This document shows positions 2,676-16,356 of a DNA stretch of 41,370 bases, in pieces. The position numbers and the translations under genes were made by a program. The stretch is from Planctomycetia bacterium (lineage in GTDB: Bacteria; Planctomycetota; Planctomycetia; Gemmatales; Gemmataceae): assembly GCA_005808665.1 (NCBI GenBank), contig SYLG01000095.1:1-41370 (forward strand). Reading direction: 5' to 3'. The notes beneath the pieces are model-generated. The model was not told the origin of the DNA, ran no database searches, and saw nothing but the letters and a program-made list of their open reading frames with translations. Each line of letters opens with the position of its first letter. The first letter of the stretch is position 1.

Positions 2676-4406
2676 TTAGAACTCCATCCGTTCAAGGGCA
2701 CGGCAACCCCGATCCAGGGCAAGGAAGGTCGTCAATACTCCGAGAATGGTAGCCAATACAAATCCGCCTGCCACCACTACCCAAACCCCAGGCGCAGGGC
2801 CGTTAGGTCCAGCCAGGGCTTGGGACATATGCCATGGAATGGCCCCCAAACCGAGCATTAACAATAAAAACACCAAGCCTACGATGAGATTGAGGGTACC
2901 GCCAAACCCTACCGCAATTTTGGACGGATCGGTCTCCCTGAAATTGGGCATTAGGGTTCCAAGCCCCACCCCAAGGGCCGAGAGGCCTGAGCTAATGAGC
3001 ACCAAAAGGCCTACATGGATGGCCATTCCCGACAGAGGCAGGGTGAGGGAAAAATCCGAAAGGACCACCAGGGGAAGGGTCACGAATAGGGAACCATAAA
3101 AGGAAAACCAAAATTTTGCCATCAGCATCCTTCTGCGCTCGATGGGCATCAGACCAAGTACCCAAAAACGCCTCCCTTCCAGGGAAAGTTGGGGGAAAAC
3201 AAAGCGGCCTGTGTAGGTACACATGAGGAGGGTCAGGCTCAACAAGTTAAGAAAACCAAGCCCCACCTGGAAGGGATACTCGATCTCCTTGGGAAACATT
3301 CGTTTGAGGTTGGAAAAATAAAGGGCCAACAACCCAAGGAATACAACGACCTGGCCCCATTGCTTTGGATCGCGGCGAAAGGACCGGAAATCCTTGAGCA
3401 TGAGGGCCGCAAGTCCCCTGTCCCCAGGGGCAAACCAATGAAAAATCCTGTCAATCCACGCTTGTGTTTTCGAGGTTGTCGCCTCGGGATTGACTGAAAG
3501 CCTGTCCACTCCCCTTCGGTAAGCAAGCTTTGCCAAGGTTGCCGCCAAAAGGTAGGCAAAGGCTCCATGGGTCCAAACCAGTGCCAAATACCATCCCGCC
3601 GTGGTAATGTCTCCAAACGCCACGGCACGAAGCCCCCTGGAAATCCAATAACTTGGCAAAACAGGAAGGCTAGCCACCTGCACCTGCCCCAGGGTTTTTT
3701 GCAAAAGATCTTCCCCCATCTGGATGTCCCCCTGACGGAGTCCACGAAGGGTTCCTGCGATCCAAAAAGAACCAAGTAAAATCGGCACGATCACGGCCAT
3801 GGAAACCAAAAGTGTCCGTCCCTTGGGTAGATAATTGACCATTAAAAGACAGAAAATCGCACCTACAGAACCGGGAATGAGGGCAAAGCCAACAAAAAAG
3901 AACGGCATCAATAAATAAAACAGGGGGCCTGCTCCTACCGAAAGGGCATAGGCCAAAAGAATGGGCCCCCCCAAGAGAAGGAAGGCCCAGGAACTAAACG
4001 ACCCGGCCACAAAAAATTTGTAGGCAAATACTTGGTCCTCCCCGACCGGTTTGCTCAACAGAAAAGCGGTTTCCGCCGAGTCAAACAGGCTCGCATGAAG
4101 GATCAGGCCTGTGGAGAAAACCAGAAGGCCAGCCAGGGACAAGAACAACATGTCAAACAAAAGGGCGACGATATTGCCACCCAAAGGAAGCTTTTGATCG
4201 ACAAGAAATCGGAAACCACCATAGGAGACACCAAAGACAAATAAGACCACGATCAGGCTACAAACCCCGATAACCACAGGCCGGATAAACGAGAATGCTG
4301 AAAAATTCTTCCATGTGTTCCAGGCGATCTTGGCCCCCAATCGCAGGAATAATTCGGCCCCTACTGAGGGAAAGTGGGACTTTTTTGCCATAGGTTTGCC
4401 GGTCAT
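2676..4406 (-). CDS. ABC exporter permease (multi-pass membrane protein)
   Basis: A 576-residue integral membrane protein with about a dozen hydrophobic segments, for example around residues 40-65, 80-110, 135-165, 175-195 and 200-220, and several after residue 345. It is the membrane partner of the ATPase encoded immediately upstream. The ATPase stop and this ATG overlap by one base (TAATG), which indicates translational coupling. An alternative start at 4391 (MAKKSHF) is possible. The segment DSAETAFLLSKPVGEDQVFAYKF resembles the 'exchange of lock and store subdomain' region common in ABC-2 type permeases that handle large or lipid substrates. The substrate cannot be read from sequence. The protein has two similar halves in hydropathy, suggesting a fused or duplicated permease. 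Confidence 0.85.
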   Translation of the reverse strand: MTGKPMAKKSHFPSVGAELFLRLGAKIAWNTWKNFSAFSFIRPVVIGVCSLIVVLFVFGVSYGGFRFLVDQKLPLGGNIVALLFDMLFLSLAGLLVFSTGLILHASLFDSAETAFLLSKPVGEDQVFAYKFFVAGSFSSWAFLLLGGPILLAYALSVGAGPLFYLLMPFFFVGFALIPGSVGAIFCLLMVNYLPKGRTLLVSMAVIVPILLGSFWIAGTLRGLRQGDIQMGEDLLQKTLGQVQVASLPVLPSYWISRGLRAVAFGDITTAGWYLALVWTHGAFAYLLAATLAKLAYRRGVDRLSVNPEATTSKTQAWIDRIFHWFAPGDRGLAALMLKDFRSFRRDPKQWGQVVVFLGLLALYFSNLKRMFPKEIEYPFQVGLGFLNLLSLTLLMCTYTGRFVFPQLSLEGRRFWVLGLMPIERRRMLMAKFWFSFYGSLFVTLPLVVLSDFSLTLPLSGMAIHVGLLVLISSGLSALGVGLGTLMPNFRETDPSKIAVGFGGTLNLIVGLVFLLLMLGLGAIPWHMSQALAGPNGPAPGVWVVVAGGFVLATILGVLTTFLALDRGCRALERMEF

Positions 4407-5191
4407 TACCTGGGGTTCCCCCCTGTTTGGATGACCGTTTCAACCAGGGATTCCTCTTCCGTCAGGCGAAGAAAAACCTCTTCAAGGGAACCTTGGAGGG
4501 AGGCCTGGGCCTTGAGGTCGGAAACCTTGCCTAGACCAATGAGTTTTCCCTTGTTAATGATGCCAATGCGCGTGGCCAATTCCTCAACCACATCGAGGGA
4601 GTGCGATGACAGGAAAACGGTTGTGCCTTGTTCCGCCTGCTCGCGGAGGATGTCCTTGAGTTGACGGACGCTTCGAGGGTCAAGCCCAACCGTCGGTTCA
4701 TCAACAATCAAAAGCCCGGGTTCATGCAAAAGAGCGGAAGCAAAAACGGTCCGTTGCCTCATACCATGGGAATAGCGTTCGGTAAGGTGGTCAATAAAGT
4801 TTTCCAAACGAAATAATTTGGCAACATGAGCAAGGCGTTCGGCCGCATAATCCTTTTCAAGGCCGTGCATATCCGCGACAAATTGAAGGAATTCACGACC
4901 CGTGAGCTTGTCGTAAAGGTAGGGCAAATCAGGTACATAACTCATGGTTGCCCTGGCCTTTCGGCCCTCTTTCAGCAGATCAAAGCCTCCTATCCGGATG
5001 GTCCCCCTTGTCGGGTAAAGCAACCCACAAAGCATCTTAATAGTGGTTGTTTTGCCCGCCCCATTGGGCCCGAGGAATGCAAACAATTCTCCCCGGGGAA
5101 TAACAAGGGTCATGTCGTCAACCGCTGGGGATCCCCCATATACTTTCGACACGCCGAGGATCTCGATCATCGGCCCAGTTGCATCAGGCAT
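4406..5191 (-). CDS. ABC transporter ATP-binding protein
   Basis: This is the nucleotide-binding subunit that powers the adjacent permease at the inner membrane. All motifs are intact: Walker A GPNGAGKTTT near residue 41, signature YSHGMRQR (a variant of LSGGQ), Walker B LLIVDEPTVGLDP, and the H-loop SSH. The C-terminal extension after the ATPase core (SLEEVFLRLTEEE) is typical of the ABC-2/CcmA-like subgroup. The open frame continues upstream to 5293, but that part overlaps the preceding gene. Two adjacent ATG codons at 5194 and 5191 sit behind a GGGAGGA ribosome site. I chose 5191 because its spacing to that site is better; the 5194 start would give an ATGA overlap with the upstream stop. 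Confidence 0.93.
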   Translation of the reverse strand: MPDATGPMIEILGVSKVYGGSPAVDDMTLVIPRGELFAFLGPNGAGKTTTIKMLCGLLYPTRGTIRIGGFDLLKEGRKARATMSYVPDLPYLYDKLTGREFLQFVADMHGLEKDYAAERLAHVAKLFRLENFIDHLTERYSHGMRQRTVFASALLHEPGLLIVDEPTVGLDPRSVRQLKDILREQAEQGTTVFLSSHSLDVVEELATRIGIINKGKLIGLGKVSDLKAQASLQGSLEEVFLRLTEEESLVETVIQTGGNPR

Positions 5192-6057
5192 CATTCCTCC
5201 CTTTCGAGAGTCCACCGATGGCGAAACTCCAAAACCACATCCTGTTTCATTACCCTGCCATTGTTGGGGTCGACCCAGATATCCATCTGGCATTCCTCCG
5301 AAACCGCCCGTAGCCTACGGCAAATCACCGCCTTGGGATCCTCTTTTTTCCAGGATTCCAAAAGGGCCAGGACTTCTACCTGCATTCGTTTCCCGGAAAT
5401 GCGACTCCCGGCGGCCCCATGCGATAAATCCCCCAGGGCATCGACACAGATGACCGTCCATTTCGACCCGGGGTTGAGCCTACCCAGTCTCCAAACGGGC
5501 ATTAGTGGAAACCAAACCATTCCGGGGTCGCCAATCTCCACCATGGGGAGTTCCCTCGTGGTTTCCCTTCCCCGGAATGTTTCGGAAACCTTCCGGGCCA
5601 ATTTGCCATTTTTGACGATACCCTCCATTTGAGCCCGTCCTTCCAGGGCAAGGTTGAGTGGGGGTTGCAGTTCCCATTTCCCTGAAATGGATTGGAGGTA
5701 GCCATTACGGCCGGTGGTGTATTCTGTCCGCAGGGATTTAAAAATGGTGGAGATACCCGATCCAGGCATGGGAGCAAGGTCCATCCAAAAAAGGAACGAT
5801 TCAACCGGTTTTTCGGTGTAATCAAGGCCCGAAATACCCCGGTATAACTCTTTGCCGTCACTAAAAATCCTCCACCTTGAAGAAGTCCGGCTTCCCACGG
5901 TTTCATCGGATAAAGCAATAAGGACAGGAGCGGGCATATCGATCGACCAAAGGGGCAAATATTCGGTCAAAAGGAGCCAACTTGTGGTTAGGATCCATCC
6001 GCCCAATATCAAAATCACAGCCCAACGGGGTGGCATCTGCAATGGTCTCCAAGGCAC
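5191..6057 (-). CDS. Membrane-anchored protein of unknown function in ABC operon
   Basis: A 288-residue protein with one N-terminal membrane segment at about residues 13-32 (AVILILGGWILTTSWLLL); the remainder is predicted outside the membrane. Soluble-part sequences such as NPGSKWTV and DIWVDPNNGRVMKQDVVLEF suggest a beta-rich fold like the LolA/outer-membrane-sorting type seen in exported proteins, but I cannot assign a family. The start is GTG at 6057, supported by GGGAG five bases upstream; an ATG at 6036 is the alternative. Its stop overlaps the start of the ABC ATPase gene, so the two are co-transcribed. It may be an accessory or substrate-handling subunit of the exporter. This is inference from context only. 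Confidence 0.8.
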   Translation of the reverse strand: MPWRPLQMPPRWAVILILGGWILTTSWLLLTEYLPLWSIDMPAPVLIALSDETVGSRTSSRWRIFSDGKELYRGISGLDYTEKPVESFLFWMDLAPMPGSGISTIFKSLRTEYTTGRNGYLQSISGKWELQPPLNLALEGRAQMEGIVKNGKLARKVSETFRGRETTRELPMVEIGDPGMVWFPLMPVWRLGRLNPGSKWTVICVDALGDLSHGAAGSRISGKRMQVEVLALLESWKKEDPKAVICRRLRAVSEECQMDIWVDPNNGRVMKQDVVLEFRHRWTLEREE

Positions 6058-6129: not shown

Positions 6130-7245
6130 ATGAAAAGTCTGGTTGTAGGCGTGCCCAGTGAGGTCAAAAACCATGAATACCGGGTGAGCCTTACCCCTGT
6201 TGGGGTCGAAGAGTTATCCCTTAGAGGCCACAAAGTCCTTATTCAGGCAGGGGCGGGCCAAGGATCCGGGATCCCCGATGAGGCCTATCGCCATCAAGGC
6301 GCGGAAATCGTTGCGGACGCCAAAGCGATTTGGTCCAGGGCGGATTTGGTCGTTAAGGTTAAGGAACCCATGAAGGAAGAATGGCCTTTGATGCGAAAGG
6401 GGCAAGTGGTTTTCACCTTTTTCCATTTTGCCGCGGACAGGGACCTTACTGAGGCCGTTTTGAAATCGGGAATCAGTGCGGTTGCCTATGAAACCATTCG
6501 TGACTCCAAGGGAACCCTGCCACTTTTGACCCCGATGAGTGAGGTCGCAGGGAGGATGAGTATTCAGGAGGGAGCCAAATACCTCGAGCGACCTTTTGAA
6601 GGCCGCGGCATCCTATTGGGCGGAGTTCCAGGCGTGGCTCCAGCCCAAGTGGTCGTTCTGGGGGCTGGCGTGGTAGGTGCCAATGCCGCCCGGGTTGCGG
6701 CAGGTTTGGGGGCCCATGTCAAAATCCTCGATGTAAACCTTGACAGGCTCCGGTACCTGGCAGATGTTATGCCACCCAATGTTTCAACCCTTTTCAGTGA
6801 CCGACACAACATTCTCCAGTCTTTAACCAGTGCAGATTTGCTTATCGGATCCGTACTCATTCCAGGCGGTAGAGCCCCTCGTTTGGTGCGCACCGAGGAC
6901 CTAAAAAGGATGCCTCCCCGTTCCGTCATAATTGATGTCGCCATCGATCAGGGTGGGTGCGTGGAAACAAGTCGGCCTACCACCCATGAAAATCCAACCT
7001 TCATGGTAAACAATGTCGTTCATTATTGTGTGACAAACATGCCCGGGGCGGTGGGCCGCACTAGCACCTATGCCTTGACCAATGTAACTTTGCCCTATGT
7101 GCTTGACTTGGCCAATAAGGGACTTAAGGGTGCCGTGATGGACAATCCAGGTTTGGCGTTGGGGCTAAACATTCATGATGGCAAGGTAATCCAGCCTTTG
7201 GTTGCTGCTGCCTTTGGCCTCCCCTGTGAAGGGTTACTTTTTTAA
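6130..7245 (+). CDS. ald: Alanine dehydrogenase
   Basis: Catalyses NAD-dependent reversible deamination of L-alanine to pyruvate and ammonium in the cytoplasm. From the chosen ATG the product is 371 residues, the normal length. The N-terminus MKSLVVGVPSEVKNHEYRV is the family's start, and a GGAGG at 6121-6125 lies four bases upstream, so the longer frame from 6100 is rejected. Substrate-binding VKVKEP (Lys) and the FHFA segment (catalytic His) are present. The Rossmann motif VVVLGAGVVGANAARVA binds NAD. It opens a tight plus-strand unit, with its stop overlapping the xseA start by one base, and is divergent from the ABC operon across 72 bases. Pyridine nucleotide transhydrogenase alpha is related, but the length and the C-terminus fit Ald. 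Confidence 0.96.
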   Translation: MKSLVVGVPSEVKNHEYRVSLTPVGVEELSLRGHKVLIQAGAGQGSGIPDEAYRHQGAEIVADAKAIWSRADLVVKVKEPMKEEWPLMRKGQVVFTFFHFAADRDLTEAVLKSGISAVAYETIRDSKGTLPLLTPMSEVAGRMSIQEGAKYLERPFEGRGILLGGVPGVAPAQVVVLGAGVVGANAARVAAGLGAHVKILDVNLDRLRYLADVMPPNVSTLFSDRHNILQSLTSADLLIGSVLIPGGRAPRLVRTEDLKRMPPRSVIIDVAIDQGGCVETSRPTTHENPTFMVNNVVHYCVTNMPGAVGRTSTYALTNVTLPYVLDLANKGLKGAVMDNPGLALGLNIHDGKVIQPLVAAAFGLPCEGLLF

Positions 7246-8534
7246 TGAGTGGAGACCTGTTCGACCCTGAACCCAAAGCCCTGGAAGTTTCCGAACTGCT
7301 TTCCGGAATCAAGCAGCTTTTCCAACCCATGGCCAAGGTTATGGTAGCTGGTGAGGTTTCCAACCTGACCCTCGCCAAAAGTGGGCACGCTTACCTGACC
7401 CTAAAGGACGCCAAGGCATCGCTCAAGGTGGTTGCGTTTCGTAGTGTCGTATCCCGCGCCCGCTTTCAGTTGTCCCAGGGAATGCGCCTTAGGGTTCTTG
7501 GAAAACTGGATGTCTATGTGGAAAGGGGAGATCTCCAATTCAATGCCCAGGAACTGAGCCCGGAAGGAATCGGCGCCTTGGAGTTGGCGTTTCGGCAACG
7601 CAAAGAAAGGATGGAGTCGCTTGGGTGGTTTTCTCCCGAACGAAAGAGGCCTATCCCCGGGTTTCCCAGAGTCATTGGAATCATTACCTCCCCTACTGGT
7701 TCAGCGGTTCGGGACATGTTGGAAACCATTAAAGAAAGGTGGCCCATTGCCCGTGTGGTGGTGGCGCCATGTCAGGTCCAGGGAAACGGATCCGCGGAAC
7801 AAATGGCAAAAGCCTTGAGCCTGATGGCCAACCTGGATTTCGAAACAGGTGGCCCACCGGATGTTATCCTGCTAGGTAGGGGTGGTGGCAGCATGGAGGA
7901 CCTGTGGGCCTTCAATGAAGAGGTTTTGGTTCGAGCCATTGTCTCCTGTCCCATTCCCGTTGTTGCCGGTGTGGGCCATGAGGACGATGTGACATTGGTC
8001 GATTTGGCAGCAGACCTAAGGGGCCTTACTCCCACGCACGCCGCCCAGTGTGCAACTCCTAAACGAACCGACTGGGCTGCCCGAATCGATTCGCAAGCCA
8101 TCCGCATGGGGCAAATTCTTAACCTGAAGCTGGCGGATTGTAACCGCAATTTGGAATCGCTCGCTCGTCGGTCCGGGTGGCACCGTCCAAAAGAGTGGGT
8201 TCGGGAAAAACAAAACAGGCTGAAAGATTGGGAAGGTCGACTCCACCAAGCTTGCCTTCATGCCCTTGCCGTCAAACATTCCCATCTCGAATCATTTAAA
8301 GATCGACTTGCACTACTCAATCCCTTGCAGGTGTTGGAGCGCGGATATAGCCTGACCTCTCCATGGATGGGAAACCGGGTTTCCACCCTTTTACGCGACG
8401 CCGCCGAAATCCATCCCGGAGACCTCCTTGAAACCAGGCTGATGCGTGGGTCTGTAATTAGTCGGGTAGAGCGGATTTTGCCCCATCAAGAGTCTATTAT
8501 CTCCTACAAAGCCAACACGGAAAACCAGGAATGA
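7245..8534 (+). CDS. xseA: Exodeoxyribonuclease VII large subunit
   Basis: This is the catalytic subunit of exonuclease VII, which degrades single-stranded DNA from both ends to short acid-soluble oligonucleotides. At 429 residues its length is normal. An N-terminal OB-fold (about residues 10-105: VMVAGEVSNLTLAKSGHAYL) binds single-stranded DNA. The catalytic domain follows, with the conserved GIITSPTGSAVRDML, GRGGGS near residue 211 and GHEDDVTLVDLAADLR near residue 243. The C-terminal helical region carries the LNPLQVLERGYSLT tail motif. It starts within the ald stop (TAATG) and ends in an ATGA overlap with xseB, so expression is coupled to both neighbours. Confidence 0.96.
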   Translation: MSGDLFDPEPKALEVSELLSGIKQLFQPMAKVMVAGEVSNLTLAKSGHAYLTLKDAKASLKVVAFRSVVSRARFQLSQGMRLRVLGKLDVYVERGDLQFNAQELSPEGIGALELAFRQRKERMESLGWFSPERKRPIPGFPRVIGIITSPTGSAVRDMLETIKERWPIARVVVAPCQVQGNGSAEQMAKALSLMANLDFETGGPPDVILLGRGGGSMEDLWAFNEEVLVRAIVSCPIPVVAGVGHEDDVTLVDLAADLRGLTPTHAAQCATPKRTDWAARIDSQAIRMGQILNLKLADCNRNLESLARRSGWHRPKEWVREKQNRLKDWEGRLHQACLHALAVKHSHLESFKDRLALLNPLQVLERGYSLTSPWMGNRVSTLLRDAAEIHPGDLLETRLMRGSVISRVERILPHQESIISYKANTENQE

Positions 8535-8821
8535 GCTCAAACCAAGCCGACACAATTCCATTGGAACAAGACCTCCAGAAGCTTGAGGATACGGTTCGGG
8601 CCCTGGAGGGGAGTGGCCTGCCTTTGGAGAAACTCCTCGAACTCTATGAGGAGGGTATTCGCATTTATCGCCGCTGCCACGGTAAACTCCAAAGTGCACA
8701 ACTAAGGGTGGAGGCGATCAAAGTGGATGCGGATGGTCGGCCAGTGCTTGAACCTTTTGACCACCAGAGTAGTATTGAATCGGCCCGGAGTTCCCTTCGC
8801 CTTCGGTCCGAAGAGGAATAG
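8531..8821 (+). CDS. xseB: Exodeoxyribonuclease VII small subunit
   Basis: This is the small helical subunit that binds the large subunit in several copies to form active exonuclease VII. The 96-residue product has the family core LEKLLELYEEGIRIYRRC around residues 35-52, following the usual first helix (LEQDLQKLEDTVRALEG). It is slightly longer than typical because of a C-terminal tail of about 25 residues that contains no known motif. The ATG at 8531 overlaps the xseA stop by four bases, and ispA begins four bases after this stop, so all three are almost certainly one transcript. Confidence 0.94.
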   Translation: MSSNQADTIPLEQDLQKLEDTVRALEGSGLPLEKLLELYEEGIRIYRRCHGKLQSAQLRVEAIKVDADGRPVLEPFDHQSSIESARSSLRLRSEEE

Positions 8822-8825
8822 GCCC

Positions 8826-9755
8826 ATGGAAATGAAGGCACACTTCGACAACCTGAAGGACCGGGCCAACCAGGAGCTTGACCGAATCCTCCAGCCGCAC
8901 TCCGGGATGCCCGAGAGTTTGCTTGAAGCCATGCGGTATAGTGTTTTGGCTCCAGGCAAGCGAATGAGGCCACTATTGGCACATTTGGGATTCGAATTGT
9001 GCAAACCTGCCGATTCCATTCCGGTTAATCCCTGGCCTGCGGCTTGTGCGGTAGAGTTTGTTCATGTCTATAGCCTGGTTCATGATGACCTTCCGGCAAT
9101 GGACGATGATGACCTCCGCAGGGGAATTCCCACATGCCACCGGAAATTCGGCGAAGCTCTTGCCATTCTGGCTGGGGATGCCCTGCTTACCTTGGCCTTT
9201 GAGATTTTGGCGGAATCCTACCCGGGAAACCTGGGAACAGAAACCATTTTGGAACTGGCAAAGGCTTCCGGAAGGACAGGTATGGTGGCCGGGCAGGTGG
9301 TAGACCTTGCTTGGGAAGGAAAAATTCAACCCAAGGAGGGTGAAAATGGCGAGAAGTGTGTCTCCAAGTTGGAATCACTTCATATGCGGAAAACAGGTGC
9401 CTTGATACGCGGGGCCTTGCGCCTTGGGGCGATGATCGGCCTTGGGGAAACCAAATCCCCCAGGGCCTTGGAAACTTTGGATAGGCTATCCCGCTTTGGA
9501 ACATGGTTGGGGTTGGCGTTTCAGATCACCGATGACCTGTTGGATGTCGAAGGAGACGCCTCCAAAGCGGGGAAACGATTGGGAAAGGATGCGACCAGGG
9601 GAAAATTGACCTATCCGGGGCTCATAGGCATCCAGGCAAGTCGTGACCGCCTCAATGAACTGGAAACCATGGCCCTTGAAGTCCTCAAACCCTTTGGAGA
9701 GAGTTCCCTGGCTTTAAAATCCCTGTTGGGAACGGTCCTCCGTCGGGATCATTAG
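8826..9755 (+). CDS. ispA: Polyprenyl (farnesyl/geranylgeranyl) diphosphate synthase
   Basis: Condenses isopentenyl diphosphate with allylic diphosphates to make C15-C20 prenyl diphosphates, the precursors of quinones, carotenoids, hopanoids and undecaprenyl carriers. Both metal-binding aspartate motifs are present: the first in DDLPAMDDDDLRRG near residue 87, of the DDx4D type, and the second in ITDDLLDVEGD near residue 236. The product from the ATG at 8826 is 309 residues, the usual size. The longer open frame from 8727 overlaps xseB and is rejected because the family begins near this ATG. It lies four bases after xseB and shortly before dxs, a widespread gene order. Chain length (C15 or C20) cannot be told with certainty here. 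Confidence 0.95.
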   Translation: MEMKAHFDNLKDRANQELDRILQPHSGMPESLLEAMRYSVLAPGKRMRPLLAHLGFELCKPADSIPVNPWPAACAVEFVHVYSLVHDDLPAMDDDDLRRGIPTCHRKFGEALAILAGDALLTLAFEILAESYPGNLGTETILELAKASGRTGMVAGQVVDLAWEGKIQPKEGENGEKCVSKLESLHMRKTGALIRGALRLGAMIGLGETKSPRALETLDRLSRFGTWLGLAFQITDDLLDVEGDASKAGKRLGKDATRGKLTYPGLIGIQASRDRLNELETMALEVLKPFGESSLALKSLLGTVLRRDH

Positions 9756-10031
9756 GGCAAATGTTTTTGGGGATACGAAGGGCCTCCAGGAGGAGGATTC
9801 CAAAGGTAACATTTCACTTGGCCTTATGTTTGTTCCCGATCCATTTCAGTATCGATCGTCACCAGTCGAGGTGAAGGCTGGTTCCGATTATTCAAAACCA
9901 GATTACACTTTTACAATAACAAACAGAGGAGGCCCATTTCTAAGAGAGTATGCCTGAATCAATGTTGAAAAACCGACCTAATCTTACTAAAATAGGCCGT
10001 GAGATATTGCACCAGGGAAGGAGCCAAACCT

Positions 10032-11972
10032 ATGGATTTGCTGCTGGGGGGAATCAAATCCCCCAAAGACCTGCATCAGCTTTCCGAAGAACAGCTTAAG
10101 CAACTTGCCCAGGAAATGCGGGATGAGCTGGTTCGTATCCTTCGGGTGCGGCCTGCCCATTTTGCCAGCAACTTGGGTGTTGTGGAACTTTGCCTTGCTT
10201 TGCACCTTTCCTTTGACTTTACCCAGGACCGGCTCATTTGGGACACAGGCCACCAAATCTATCCCCACAAACTGATCACCGGCCGCTATGAGTCCTTTGG
10301 ATCAATCCGAACCAAAGGTGGAATCATGGGCTACCCCAACCCTGCTGAAAGCGAATATGACCTGTTCATGACAGGCCACGCTGGCTCAAGCGTTTCCACG
10401 GCCCTTGGGCTAAAAATGGGGGATGTGGTCAATGGCCATCATGATCGCCATAGTGTAGCCGTGATTGGTGATGGGGCTCTCCCTTCGGGCATCGTTTTCG
10501 AAGCACTTAATAATGCGGGAGCCTTAAACAAGAATTTCCTCGTCATCCTCAATGACAACGCCATGTCCATTTGCCCAAGGGTGGGCTCCCTGGCAAAATG
10601 CCTCGATCAGGCGAGGATGTCCGATTTGTACCTTGGTTCGAAAAGGCACATACGCGACCTTTTGCAAAAGGTGCCCCTTGTAGGCGGCATGGCCACGCAT
10701 TTTCTTGAACAAGCCAAGGAAGCGGTCAAGGCTTTTTTCCACGGTGGTGTCCTCTTTGAAGAGCTGGGCTTTCGCTACTTTGGTCCTATCGATGGCCACA
10801 ATCTTCCCGAATTAAGGCGTTGGATCAATGATGTCAAGCAGCTTAAGGGGCCGGTTTTGCTTCATGTCCTGACGAACAAGGGCGAAGGCGTGGCCCAGGC
10901 CAGTGCCGATCCGGTCACCTATCACACCCCCCCAGTGTTTGAAGAGGTTGGCCCGGAAAGGACCATTCTGTCGCTAAAAAAAGGTGGTTCCAAAGCGTAC
11001 ACGGATGCGTTTAGCGCAGCCATTCATGAAAAGATGGGAGCGGATAACAAGGTTTCCATCATCACTGCCGCCATGTGCCAGGGTAACAAGCTCGAAAAAA
11101 TTCGCATGGATTATTCCGATCGCTTTTTCGATGTGGGAATCTGTGAAAGTCACGGGGTTGCCTTTGCAGCGGGTATGGCAAAGGTGGGTGCCAAACCCAT
11201 TGTAGCGATCTATTCCACCTTTTTACAGCGTTCCTTCGACCAAATTTTCCAGGAGGTCTGCCTGCAAAACCTGCCCGTGGTTTTCTGCATGGATCGGGCG
11301 GGATTCACCGGCCCGGACGGTCCTACCCATCATGGGGTGTACGACATCCCCTATATGCGCATGTTTCCGAATATGGTCGTTATGGCTCCTGGGGATGAAG
11401 CCGATGTCAAGCCCATGCTTGACTTTTCCCTTGGGAATAACAGCCCGGTGGGAATTCGTTATCCCAAAGCCCCTTTGGAAAATCATGAACGAAATGTTGC
11501 CCCGGTGGAGCTTGGAACCGCAGAAGTTTTTGAGTGGGGAGACGATGCTATCTTTTTGGCGTTTGGCACCCTTTTGGGGAATGCGGTAAAGGCCGCCCAA
11601 ATCCTTCGGAATGAGGGCTATTCTGTTGGAGTGGTTAATGCCCGGTTTGCCAAGCCCCTTGACGAAACCATTACCCTGAAAGCGATCTCCCAGGCGGCGG
11701 TGGTTGCAACCATCGAAGAGGGATCTCTCGAAGGCGGGTACGGATCTGCGGTGCTGGAGGCTTGCAACCGGGCCGGGGTGGATTCCCGGAATGTGGTCCG
11801 GTTGGGCCACCCCGACCGCTTTATTCTCCACGCCGAACGCACGGAACAACTTCATGAAATTGGCCTTGATCCGGATGGTATGGCCAGCACTGTTCGCAAA
11901 CAGCTCCAATTACGGGCTCCCCAACCGGGAGTCCGGCGGGTCCGCAAAAGTGGGGCGAGCCAAAGCGCTTAG
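10032..11972 (+). CDS. dxs: 1-deoxy-D-xylulose-5-phosphate synthase
   Basis: This thiamine-diphosphate enzyme condenses pyruvate and glyceraldehyde-3-phosphate, the first and flux-controlling step of the MEP isoprenoid pathway. From the ATG at 10032 the product is 646 residues, close to the family norm. An AAGGAG at 10018-10023 with eight bases of spacing selects this start over the upstream frame at 9999. The ThDP-binding GDGA motif with downstream Asn is seen in VIGDGALPSGIVFEALNNAG. The segment GHAGSSVSTALGLKMG and the pyrimidine-domain DRAGFTGPDGPTHHG with its conserved histidines are also present. The C-terminal transketolase domain ends the protein. It sits 276 bases after ispA and 71 bases before nadK, so it may have its own promoter. 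Confidence 0.97.
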   Translation: MDLLLGGIKSPKDLHQLSEEQLKQLAQEMRDELVRILRVRPAHFASNLGVVELCLALHLSFDFTQDRLIWDTGHQIYPHKLITGRYESFGSIRTKGGIMGYPNPAESEYDLFMTGHAGSSVSTALGLKMGDVVNGHHDRHSVAVIGDGALPSGIVFEALNNAGALNKNFLVILNDNAMSICPRVGSLAKCLDQARMSDLYLGSKRHIRDLLQKVPLVGGMATHFLEQAKEAVKAFFHGGVLFEELGFRYFGPIDGHNLPELRRWINDVKQLKGPVLLHVLTNKGEGVAQASADPVTYHTPPVFEEVGPERTILSLKKGGSKAYTDAFSAAIHEKMGADNKVSIITAAMCQGNKLEKIRMDYSDRFFDVGICESHGVAFAAGMAKVGAKPIVAIYSTFLQRSFDQIFQEVCLQNLPVVFCMDRAGFTGPDGPTHHGVYDIPYMRMFPNMVVMAPGDEADVKPMLDFSLGNNSPVGIRYPKAPLENHERNVAPVELGTAEVFEWGDDAIFLAFGTLLGNAVKAAQILRNEGYSVGVVNARFAKPLDETITLKAISQAAVVATIEEGSLEGGYGSAVLEACNRAGVDSRNVVRLGHPDRFILHAERTEQLHEIGLDPDGMASTVRKQLQLRAPQPGVRRVRKSGASQSA

Positions 11973-12043
11973 GCTCCCAATCAGGTCAGCCAACCTTACC
12001 GGGAAAAAAACCTGACCCTTTGGTCCAATCGGAAAGGATTGCG

Positions 12044-12916
12044 ATGAGGCTTGTCGTGTTGGGAAATGCCCTCCGACATGGGGTATCGGAAGCGGCTGTC
12101 CAGATTATTCCCCAGTTAGAGCGTAGGGCCGATGTTCGCATTGTTGACCTTCATCAAACCGCAAACCTCTCCGAAATTGAGGCCGATTATGCCATCGTGC
12201 TGGGGGGTGACGGTGCGATCCTCCGGGCGGCCAGGCAAATGGGATATCGCCAAATTCCCACGCTAGGGATCAACTTGGGACGGCTTGGTTTTTTGGCGGA
12301 ATATCAGTGTCAGGAAATTCCCCACATTCTCGATTCGCTGGAATCCGGCCGCTTTAGCCTTACCCATCATCTCATGCTGGAATGCATCGGGCCCAGCACC
12401 GATAAACCCATTTTGGGGTTAAATGATTTGTCCATCAAGTCAGGGCCACCTTTTCGAATGGTGGAACTGAGCCTGTTCATTGATGGCTGCGAAGTCAGCC
12501 AATATCGGGCAGATGGGGTGCTCATCAGCACTCCGGTAGGGTCCACGGCCCATAGCCTGGCCGCCGGGGGCCCTATTCTTGGCCAAGAAATGGAGGCGTT
12601 TGTCATTACCCCCATTTGCCCGCATGCCCTTACCAGTCGCCCCTTGGTAGAATCTGCCGCCCGTGAACTTGTCCTGAAGCTTTGCGGTGACCGGGACCGG
12701 TTGATGGCGATTGTTGATGGCCAGGTTGAGATCCCCCTGGAACCGAATGGGTTAATCACCATCCGCAAAGCGCCCGTGTTTTTCCAGCTGATTAGGCTAT
12801 TGGATCGTTCCTTTTACCGGACCTTACGGGAAAAACTGGCCTGGGGCACCCTTCCAGGGTTTCGAACCGAGTTATTGCCTGGTTCCCCCTCGACCGACAT
12901 TAGGTCCCCCATATAG
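12044..12916 (+). CDS. nadK: NAD kinase
   Basis: Phosphorylates NAD+ to NADP+ using ATP or polyphosphate in the cytoplasm. The product from the ATG at 12044 is 290 residues and is preceded by GGAAAGGA, so the in-frame TTG at 12020 is unlikely to be used. The GGDG motif lies in AIVLGGDGAILRAARQM near residue 55. The NAD-binding strand RADGVLISTPVGSTAHSLAAGG matches the family's DGxxxxTPxGSTAY block. Where most NAD kinases have the NE pair, this one reads GLNDLSI, with Asp in place of Glu; this is conservative. NADPH demand by isoprenoid synthesis may explain its position after dxs. It is followed by the ABC-2-like gene after 51 bases. Confidence 0.95.
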   Translation: MRLVVLGNALRHGVSEAAVQIIPQLERRADVRIVDLHQTANLSEIEADYAIVLGGDGAILRAARQMGYRQIPTLGINLGRLGFLAEYQCQEIPHILDSLESGRFSLTHHLMLECIGPSTDKPILGLNDLSIKSGPPFRMVELSLFIDGCEVSQYRADGVLISTPVGSTAHSLAAGGPILGQEMEAFVITPICPHALTSRPLVESAARELVLKLCGDRDRLMAIVDGQVEIPLEPNGLITIRKAPVFFQLIRLLDRSFYRTLREKLAWGTLPGFRTELLPGSPSTDIRSPI

Positions 12917-12967: not shown

Positions 12968-14182
12968 ATGAATTTCTCGCTCGATTGGTTCGTTCCGGGG
13001 TTTTTACTCTGTTTGTTGCAGGTAATCCTTGCAATTCCATGGTTATTAGCCTCTGGATTGGTCCAAAATCCATTAAAACGCGGGTTTGCCACCCTCCTAC
13101 CCCCTTCTATTGCCGGTCTCCTTGCCTGTGTGGTCCTTCCGATAACGGTCATTAATACCTTTGAAGCGGATATTACCGAAGGAATGGGCCAATGGTTCGC
13201 CGCCATTGCCCAACTTCAATTGGTCCTGGATACCTTCATTATAGGGGTTCCTCTTCTGGGAATGCTTTGGCCCAAAGGTGGGGCGGTAGCCCAGGCCGCT
13301 TTCCGAGAGGGTGTTCGCCAACCCATGTTTTGGCTGCTGGGTGGCATGGGTTTTCTGATGATGCTGGCGGCCCCGATGGTACCTTACTTCACCTTTGGTG
13401 AAGACGACAAAATGGTGAAGGAAATCGGCTATGACCTCCTCATGCTTTGCGGTGCCATTTTCGGCGCTTTGGCCGCTGGTTTTTTTGTCAGCGAAGAAAT
13501 CGAAGGGCGGACCGCAGTAACCCTTCTCAGCAAACCCGTTTCCAGGCGCCAATTCCTCATTGGCAAATTCGTTGGCATCCTTATGGCCGCATTGCTCATG
13601 ATTTCGGTTCTTGGAACCTGGTTTGAGGTGACGATCTTCCTCAAGCGCCACATTGAAAGAATGGACCCTATCCCGGTTGGGGAATGGCTTCAATTATTGA
13701 CCAATCAGGCCAGGTTGCCTAATAGTGCATTAGGGATCTTTCGAGGCATAAGTCTATGGGTAGGAATGCTTTATGAGGTTGGTCCCGGGGTGTTCCTCTC
13801 CGGTTGGCAAATCACCCTTCTTACCGCCATTGCCGTTTCCTTGGCAACCCGGCTTCCGGTCACGGTCAATATGCCTGTGATTCTATCCATTTACCTCATG
13901 GCTCACCTGACCCCGGTTTTGGTAAAAATTGGTGCCATTGCCCGGGCCGCCTCGCCGAACGATCCAGTCGCCACCCTTCTGGAGTTTACTGGACGCGTTT
14001 TTGACACCGTTTTGCCCTCATTGGAGTTTTTCCGGGTCGGGCCGGCCATGCTTGGGGATGCCCCTCCGGCCCCAGGCCCATTTCTTGCTTATATTGGGAT
14101 GGTTAGCCTTTACGGAATAATGTACACCACGGTTGCCCTTTTGCTTGGCCTGATCCTTTTTGAGGATCGGGATTTGGCATAA
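12968..14182 (+). CDS. ABC-2 family membrane permease-like protein, no cognate ATPase nearby
   Basis: A 404-residue inner-membrane protein. Two N-terminal membrane segments (about 10-30 and 45-65) and further ones near 85-100, 115-135, 155-175, 200-220, 280-300 and 375-395 are visible. The segment EEIEGRTAVTLLSKPVSRRQFLIGKFVGI is the hallmark of ABC-2 type permeases: a cytoplasmic loop with coupling-helix character followed by the next membrane segment. Such permeases normally work with a separate ATPase, but no intact ATPase gene lies next to it; the following gene encodes an ABC protein with destroyed nucleotide-binding motifs. It might use an ATPase encoded elsewhere. The start is ATG at 12968, just after a small hairpin. 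Confidence 0.82.
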   Translation: MNFSLDWFVPGFLLCLLQVILAIPWLLASGLVQNPLKRGFATLLPPSIAGLLACVVLPITVINTFEADITEGMGQWFAAIAQLQLVLDTFIIGVPLLGMLWPKGGAVAQAAFREGVRQPMFWLLGGMGFLMMLAAPMVPYFTFGEDDKMVKEIGYDLLMLCGAIFGALAAGFFVSEEIEGRTAVTLLSKPVSRRQFLIGKFVGILMAALLMISVLGTWFEVTIFLKRHIERMDPIPVGEWLQLLTNQARLPNSALGIFRGISLWVGMLYEVGPGVFLSGWQITLLTAIAVSLATRLPVTVNMPVILSIYLMAHLTPVLVKIGAIARAASPNDPVATLLEFTGRVFDTVLPSLEFFRVGPAMLGDAPPAPGPFLAYIGMVSLYGIMYTTVALLLGLILFEDRDLA

Positions 14183-14259: not shown

Positions 14260-16356
14260 ATGAAAACCATCCCTGCTTTCCCAGCATGGGCAATGCGCCG
14301 GGCCCGAAATCAATGTTGGGGCCACCCCCATTATGGTCGTTTGAGCCTCCTGGGCTCATGCCTGGTTTCCCTATGCCTTGGCCTTTTGGTCTTTCCCCTT
14401 ATTTCCAGTTTCCTATTACTCCTTCAATTGGGAACGATTTCAGCCCAATCCTCCAATGAGCCCCGCCTTTCCCAAACGCTTACCAGAAGCTGGGGATTTG
14501 ACCTCCCCCAGGATCGTTTGGATGCCTTGGAACAATCCGGCGTAAACCCAATGGTGGCAAAATCCTTGGCCTTTGAAACTCAAACCTCGGAAATATCCCA
14601 AGAGCTTTGGGGGGGGATGGTAACTCTTTTTGCGAAACAAAATGGTATCGATCCAGCGACCGTTCGTCCAGGGAAAGATGGTGGACTAACAGGCATCCAA
14701 CTGCGCTTGGCTGCCTCCCGATTTGGGACAATGGCATGGGTTCATGGTATATTTGGAAAGCTTTCCGGCGCACACCAAACCGACTCTGCCCTTGGGTGGA
14801 ATTTTATGTTCAGCTCCCTTCTTTGCCTTGGCGCAATTTGGGGGCGATTTTTAGCCAAGGTTGGTGCCCTTCGTGCCGCTTCCGAAGGTGGAACCCGACT
14901 TGGCTTGATGATGGTTGCCCAATCCCAAAACCTCCAACGCCTTCGGATTTTGCCTCAAGCGGTTAACCAACTATTGCCATTGGAAGAGGGATTGGCCACC
15001 CTCACCCAATTCCTTGCTCGGGAAATTGCCAACCGGTATGGGCTGCCCCTTATTTGCCTTGGTCTTTTTTTGGTAGGACTTTGTACCGGAGTGTGGTCAT
15101 TCCTTGGACTCCTTGGCGTGGCACTTTTGATCATTGCTGCACGATTGGGATGGGATTTAATGGTTTCGGATGCCAAAGAGGTTGGCCGAATAGGTAGCTT
15201 ATCCCTGACGGGCCTGCTTCACGAAACACTTCTTCCCGTCCGTTTGACACACAGCCTTGGAATCGAGGGTGCCCAACAAGGGCATGCTGAACATTGGGTT
15301 GATCGCCTTGGGGCTTCCCGCCGCCGGATGGTTTGGTTGATTTGCACCTATGGAGCGGTAGAAGCGATTAGTATTCTGGTGATCCTTGGGGCAGGGTTGG
15401 TTATAGCCTGGGTCGGGCTTCGTGGGTCGGTTGAGGGTTTGGCAATGGCTCTTGGCGGGGCATATTGTGCGGCCGGGATTCAGGTAGCTGCTATAGAAAT
15501 GGCCAGGTTGGCCCGACGGGGTGAAGTTGTGTCACCCCTTGCCGCCACTCTCTACGAGTTTATTGATGAACGGGATCCACCCATGCGGCCGGGAACGCTT
15601 GCCTTGGGCCCATTAGTCGAAAAATTGGAACTTGATGATGTTTGCCTTCGGGAAGAGATATCGGGGAAACGGCTCTTGGAAGGGGTCACACTTTCACTCC
15701 CTGTGGGACATCGGGTTGCACTTGTTTGTGAAGATCCAAATACAATCCATGCCCTTTTCGCAGTTCTGGCAAGATTGGTGGAACCCAATTCGGGCGATAT
15801 CCGCTTTGATCGGACCAACCTCCGTTCCGCCCGTGAGGATGACCTTCGGCGGCAAGTATCCCTTATCTGTCCTTCGGATGGAATGCTTCCCGGGACGGTC
15901 CTTGATAACCTGATTGCGGGGCGGGAAATCAACGAGGCTGTGGCGATTGATTCCGCCAAGCGCGTTCACCTCGACAGGTTGATACGCGACCTACCTGAGG
16001 GATATCAAACCATTGTGGATGGAAAAGGTGCCCCACTTTCACCCCTTTCCAGGCATTTGCTATCCCTGGCCCGGGTCATTTCTGCAAATCCCTCATTGAT
16101 CCTTTGGGAGGATCCCGATTTCCCCCTTTCCCCATCGGAAGCGGCTCTTTTGGACGATGCCTGCAGGCGCTGGTTTGACGGAAAAACGGTGCTGATGCTC
16201 GCCCGTCGGGTTTCAACCCTAAAACATTCTGAAAAGGTCTTTTATTTCCGGGGTCCATCCCTTGAAGGATTTGGAAAACATCCAGAATTGATGGAAACAT
16301 CGGGAGAATATCGACATATTCTGGGGCGGATTATAGTTGAATCAGGTAATAAATAA
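14260..16356 (+). CDS. Degenerate type-1 ABC exporter: fold kept, nucleotide-binding motifs lost
   Basis: A 698-residue protein with the architecture of a half-size ABC exporter: an N-terminal membrane segment (about 27-65), a membrane domain with segments near 180-200, 255-300 and 365-405, and a C-terminal ABC domain (about 450-690). Every catalytic motif of the ABC domain is altered. The Walker A site reads VCEDPNTIHAL (about 488-498) instead of GxxGxGKS/T. The Q-loop reads ICPSDGML without Gln. The signature reads LSPLSRHLLSLAR instead of LSGGQ. Walker B reads LILWEDP, with Asp and Glu exchanged. The H-loop reads LARRVST, with Arg for His. The surrounding hydrophobic pattern is intact and the frame is open, so this is not simple decay. 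A GGGAG six bases before the ATG supports the start. It probably cannot hydrolyse ATP alone and may be a partner in a heterodimer or have a new role. Confidence 0.85.
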   Translation: MKTIPAFPAWAMRRARNQCWGHPHYGRLSLLGSCLVSLCLGLLVFPLISSFLLLLQLGTISAQSSNEPRLSQTLTRSWGFDLPQDRLDALEQSGVNPMVAKSLAFETQTSEISQELWGGMVTLFAKQNGIDPATVRPGKDGGLTGIQLRLAASRFGTMAWVHGIFGKLSGAHQTDSALGWNFMFSSLLCLGAIWGRFLAKVGALRAASEGGTRLGLMMVAQSQNLQRLRILPQAVNQLLPLEEGLATLTQFLAREIANRYGLPLICLGLFLVGLCTGVWSFLGLLGVALLIIAARLGWDLMVSDAKEVGRIGSLSLTGLLHETLLPVRLTHSLGIEGAQQGHAEHWVDRLGASRRRMVWLICTYGAVEAISILVILGAGLVIAWVGLRGSVEGLAMALGGAYCAAGIQVAAIEMARLARRGEVVSPLAATLYEFIDERDPPMRPGTLALGPLVEKLELDDVCLREEISGKRLLEGVTLSLPVGHRVALVCEDPNTIHALFAVLARLVEPNSGDIRFDRTNLRSAREDDLRRQVSLICPSDGMLPGTVLDNLIAGREINEAVAIDSAKRVHLDRLIRDLPEGYQTIVDGKGAPLSPLSRHLLSLARVISANPSLILWEDPDFPLSPSEAALLDDACRRWFDGKTVLMLARRVSTLKHSEKVFYFRGPSLEGFGKHPELMETSGEYRHILGRIIVESGNK

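Follow-up and report, generated by a model that had tools for sequence, protein, structure and literature searches.

What keeps a gene in a genome when it retains the architecture of an ABC exporter and its ATP-site motifs have gone? This question is raised by a gene at positions 14260–16356 (+ strand) of a 41,370-nucleotide stretch of planctomycete DNA (hereafter, the window), which an earlier note had described as an ABC exporter with all five nucleotide-binding motifs altered, lying beside an ABC-2-like permease and apparently selected for a non-hydrolytic role. The reading frame is intact over 698 codons, as that note had stated, with an ATG start and no internal stops, and the complementary strand across the same interval is crowded with stops and thus non-coding. 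We refer to the gene and its product as pABC, and to the neighbouring permease as PERM. Taken singly, the ABCB exporter fold, the ABC-2 permease and degenerate ABC sites are each of a known kind, and an ABC exporter with a degenerate ATP site as a rule retains one working site. Among the Pfam and NCBIfam models that we used, none describes a class-wide exporter family without any complete site, and the open-access literature searched yielded no description of degenerate ABC proteins in planctomycetes, while subscription papers may hold pseudo-exporters of other families.

The reading frame, Pfam, phmmer and the predicted structure identify pABC as a 698-aa type IV (ABCB-like) ABC exporter half with a degenerate nucleotide-binding domain (NBD), i.e. 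a pseudo-ATPase. An AlphaFold2 model (mean pLDDT 77.9, pTM 0.59) predicts six long membrane helices, distributed as TM1 (residues 23–56; 14326–14427) and TM2–TM6 (residues 174–435; 14779–15564), with an extracytoplasmic helical loop domain (approximately residues 60–172; 14437–14775) between TM1 and TM2, followed by the pseudo-NBD (residues 455–698; 15622–16353), which the model places at residues 455–690; all of these lie on the + strand. The loop domain is the most variable region of pABC within the genus. Structural comparison of the model with MsbA, TmrAB and TM287/288 gave Z-scores of 28–30 over ~540 residues, Foldseek matched it to exporters with an E-value of 2.6e-25, and phmmer matched ABCB exporters across both the membrane domain and the NBD. 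At the level of profiles, ABC_tran is matched by the window protein at 29.7 bits (cut-off 25) and by 37/37 family members (E 0.001), and ABC_membrane (PF00664) by 32/37, the window protein not among them. The claim that the membrane domain and the ABC framework are kept is thus borne out by ABC_tran, phmmer and the predicted structure, although the window protein does not reach the ABC_membrane model. ABC_tran has 47 matches in the genome of the window, and pABC scores lowest, at 33.6 bits against 74–136 bits for the other 46, a gap that places its divergence beyond chance. By its model, pABC has the ABCB-like type IV exporter fold, a six-helix membrane domain fused to an NBD, and this predicted NBD retains its fold but not its ATP site.

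All five motif strings quoted in the earlier note are present in the translation, and all are altered with respect to the canonical paralogs to which pABC was aligned. The former Walker A (residues 490–497; 15727–15750) reads CEDPNTIH where the canonical motif is GxxGxGK[ST], the changes being G490C, G493P, G495T, K496I and S/T497H. The former Q-loop glutamine is a proline (Q538P; 15871–15873) and the former H-loop histidine an arginine (H649R; 16204–16206). In the former signature (residues 593–597; 16036–16050), LSPLS stands in place of LSGGQ, with L593 and S594 retained and G595P, G596L and Q597S changed. The former Walker B acidic pair (residues 617–619; 16108–16116) reads EDP, keeping two acidic residues in swapped order (D617E, E618D), where most of the family has EEP and the canonical paralogs DEA or DEF. 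Hence, of the features that mark a functional ABC ATPase (Walker A, signature, Walker B Asp and Glu, Q-loop Gln and H-loop His), the window pABC carries none.

The same losses recur across the family, in a graded manner. We counted residues in 67 non-redundant pABC sequences and 24 canonical exporters (paralogs) from the same genome group: the 4th and 6th Gly of Walker A are present in 0/67 and 1/67 pABC, its Ser/Thr in 2/67, its Lys in 34/67, the Q-loop Gln in 36/67, the H-loop His in 30/67 and the Walker B Asp in 0/67 (Glu in 62), whereas each of these residues is found in 24/24 canonical sequences, and the 67-member set having been chosen after removal of P-loop proteins, its motif counts are partly circular. 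The unbiased check on P-loop loss is the gene adjoining PERM, and in the loci read, outgroup loci included, this position held no P-loop-bearing pABC-type gene. A P-loop was likewise found in none of the pABC orthologs read, distant ones included, and LSGGQ/E is absent from every one of them. At the second acidic position of Walker B, the 67 sequences have Glu in 63 cases and Asp in 4, so that the motif has been rebuilt as a near-invariant EEP and not simply lost; the statement that every motif is lost therefore stands for the window protein but not, with respect to Walker B, for the family as a whole. Conservation by domain is highest in the NBD (0.61, compared with 0.45 for TM2–6), and its near-invariant columns are the Walker B pair, the Pro that comes next, and residues of the framework. 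Walker A after its first Gly, the Q-loop, the H-loop and the S, G and G of the signature fall mostly within the lowest 8–35% of NBD columns, and the residues that replace the P-loop Gly and Ser/Thr differ from family to family. A highly divergent subgroup of ~620–660 aa proteins, also adjoining PERM and matching the profile at 127–141 bits, has NBD motifs that are eroded further (loci L121, L122, L124, L125, L127, L128, L130, L150, L185 and L186).

A profile search with follow-up detected pABC in 50 of the 59 Planctomycetia genomes sampled; this figure, like those for adjacency to PERM given below, was tallied by hand from match tables. In the remaining nine (G004, G007, G015, G016, G032, G046, G047, G052 and G056) pABC went undetected, and the absence is weak for G004 and G007, which are only ~75% complete. 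A match in G052 (L074) was rejected as pABC, being a canonical exporter. Widening the sample to 392 genomes from the phylum, we found pABC in Planctomycetia only: every listed genome of family f4 has it, whereas families f6, f8 and f98 yielded no pABC. One strong match from beyond the class was read, and it proved to be a canonical exporter. Several public records that bear a name also hold pABC, among them Gemmataceae, Limnoglobus roseus, Zavarzinella formosa and an Isosphaeraceae bacterium, and these identify the class as Planctomycetia. The same losses in these records and in independent genomes rule out an error of sequencing or assembly confined to a single genome. When the tree is computed with the motif columns left out, a fully supported split sets pABC apart from the remaining sequences, with finer detail limited because branches are long and an outside root is lacking. 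Judged from these sequences, the motif loss is class-wide and old, with pABC inherited since early Planctomycetia.

Low dN/dS had been proposed as a check on selection, and pairwise Nei–Gojobori estimates between the window gene and its closest relative gave 0.127 overall and 0.10 for the NBD, with 0.07–0.26 in other close pABC pairs. Two orthologs from the same genus (83% and 65% identity) have intact frames and the same altered motifs, and share with the window the gene order nadK, permease, pABC, tadA. Together, the intact orthologs with the same losses and the low dN/dS support the earlier proposal that a non-hydrolytic role is under selection, and they indicate purifying selection on the pABC scaffold, from which the ATP site has been released. 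They also bear on the opposite explanation, a normal exporter in recent decay towards a pseudogene, whose expected signs were intact motifs in orthologs, or reading frames broken by stops and frameshifts in close relatives. The former were not found, even among orthologs adjoining PERM, and neither were the latter, the two congeneric genes being intact. In favour of decay, one may note that the branch of the window genus is, like several others, a fast one, and that its loss of motif residues goes further than in most. However, with frames intact, dN/dS low and the loss as old as the class, we rejected this explanation as extremely improbable.

PERM is encoded directly upstream, at 12968–14182 on the same strand. 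It is a 404-aa ABC-2 permease (NosY-fold, type V), as assigned by PF12679 (38.7 bits) and predicted structure; its predicted structure (residues 102–401) aligns with NosY over 248 residues (Z 20.3, rmsd 4.1). A strong PERM match is present in 59/59 sampled genomes. Among the 50 genomes with pABC, PERM lies directly upstream of it in 35, from several families, and the adjacency persists though the surrounding gene order differs; in ~15 genomes the two are on separate contigs or loci. PERM also occurs in the 9/59 genomes without detectable pABC, which shows that pABC is not its obligatory engine. As the earlier note had observed for the window, the permease has no ATPase of its own, and an ABC ATPase gene was not found beside PERM in the window, in relatives or in the outgroup loci examined. 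The idea that PERM uses pABC as its ATPase is rejected by the motif loss and by the persistence of PERM without pABC. A canonical ABC_tran ATPase does exist at 4406–5293 (−), but its role as the PERM engine is unsupported: it lies on the other strand, ~7.7 kb upstream, with putative partner genes of its own. It forms part of a separate ABC system (2676–6057, −), along with a PF16949 "Putative ATP-binding cassette protein" at 2676–4406 (−) and a 288-aa ORF without a Pfam match at 5191–6057 (−).

Other features of these loci are worth recording. Upstream of PERM, in the window (7245–12916, +) and in several relatives, lie xseA, ispA, dxs and nadK, a common bacterial gene cluster. Downstream of pABC, many relatives (L039, L040, L049, L060, L069, L038, L044 and others) carry a conserved gene of 270–310 aa with an inositol-monophosphatase/PAP-phosphatase-like motif (DPIDGTRGF), which is absent from the window. 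Relatives of PERM in outgroup classes adjoin a metallophosphoesterase-like gene (GDIHGNLEAL; L199, L200, L203 and L204) and not an ABC ATPase. The PERM of family f6, one of those without pABC, is extended at its N-terminus by a module of ~200 aa, in which membrane helices flank an extracytoplasmic stretch (L194, L196 and L197), and one may guess that this module substitutes for something that pABC provides elsewhere.

What, then, might pABC do? It retains six predicted TM helices, the extra extracytoplasmic helical domain and the entire NBD scaffold, while the P-loop, the Mg-binding Walker B Asp and the LSGGQ clamp could no longer be formed. With these three lost, pABC would be expected neither to bind ATP in the usual way nor to power transport, and a loss of ATP function is well supported at the sequence level. 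A composite ATP site is built from the Walker A of one NBD and the signature of the other; as pABC lacks both, any dimer that contains it, whether homo- or heterodimeric, would by this architecture have no complete site. The likeliest role for pABC is that of a membrane subunit with a structural or regulatory function, by analogy with SUR1 for Kir6, and gene order points to PERM, encoded next door, as its most likely partner. PERM itself may be energised by an ATPase encoded elsewhere, which is the least certain step. For this reading as a whole, an ancient ABCB-type pseudo-ATPase serving as a structural or regulatory subunit, with the NosY-like PERM as likeliest partner and an ATPase elsewhere supplying the power, we consider the chances to be about even. 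Against it stand the nine genomes with PERM but no detectable pABC, the ~15 in which the two genes lie apart, and the Walker B Glu pair and Walker A Lys retained in many members, with which some residual or unusual ligand binding is conceivable; the adjacency of the two genes could also mean shared expression only. A stricter form, in which the class-wide pABC family has abandoned ATP entirely and provides a fixed regulatory or structural subunit of a NosY-type permease, so that a pseudo-exporter (type IV) and a permease (type V) make up a two-fold complex with any ATPase coming from elsewhere, is put forward more tentatively.

The last possibility leads to the explanation that pABC works alone, as an ATP-free homodimer serving as a channel, scaffold, sensor or secondary carrier, with the proximity of PERM reflecting only co-expression. 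The separate loci in ~15 genomes, the nine genomes that have PERM without pABC and the retention of a complete six-helix membrane domain all fit such a protein; however, the same permease adjoins pABC in families with little other gene order in common, and we regard independent action as possible but somewhat doubtful. Another candidate is a degenerate half of a heterodimeric exporter, with a canonical half encoded elsewhere as in TM287/288. In its favour, many heterodimers have one degenerate site (PMC7756269), and canonical exporters of the same superfamily occur in the genomes examined. Yet the known heterodimers keep one complete composite site, whereas with pABC neither site could be complete; moreover, the nearest canonical paralogs have every motif intact and occur also where pABC is missing, and no canonical half-transporter gene directly adjoins pABC in the loci read, all of which makes a heterodimer unlikely.

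Just as unlikely, or marginally more so, is a remodelled site that binds a nucleotide or another phosphate ligand through EEP, helped in many members by Walker A Lys and H-loop His. The frequencies of the Walker B Glu pair (62–63/67) and of K (34/67), H (30/67) and Q (36/67) speak for it. Against it, the P-loop Gly and Ser/Thr have disappeared, with different substitutes in different families, the K, H and Q columns rank within the bottom third of the NBD by conservation, and the window genus has lost all three of these residues (Walker A Lys, H-loop His and Q-loop Gln) as well.

Comparison with known systems places the subunit reading in context. Like MsbA, Sav1866, TmrAB, TM287/288 and P-glycoprotein, pABC combines a six-helix membrane domain and a C-terminal NBD in one chain; it differs from these ABCB-type exporters in lacking the P-loop, the Walker B Asp and the Gly pair of the signature, and in having the additional extracytoplasmic helical domain between TM1 and TM2. 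With Pdr5, in which all motifs of one site are reportedly changed (PMC7756269), and with TAP, BmrCD and MsRv1273c/72c, it shares altered motifs in a retained fold, but these transporters keep one complete catalytic site, whereas pABC lacks both site halves and has no canonical half gene adjoining it. An exporter fold that regulates another membrane protein is exemplified by SUR1, a regulatory ABC subunit (PMC6699824), and SUR2 in KATP channels, and for pABC this is proposed as an analogy only: SUR is a nucleotide-binding protein that pairs with a K+ channel, whereas pABC, from its sequence, appears not to bind nucleotides and its partner would be an ABC-2 permease, the two proteins being unrelated beyond the superfamily. 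PERM, in turn, shares its predicted fold and its ABC-2 permease type with NosY; NosY has the ATPase NosF, whereas next to PERM, in the window as in the relatives examined, there is no gene for an ATPase.

These findings have consequences for annotation and for planctomycete biology. Profile-based annotation would label pABC genes as ABC transporter ATP-binding proteins, yet ATPase activity is unlikely in view of their sequences. PERM emerges as a core planctomycete permease that lacks a known energy source. Finally, pABC, its exporter fold kept under strong selection for the age of the class with no complete site possible, constitutes a natural test of the scaffold role of the NBD apart from ATP hydrolysis.
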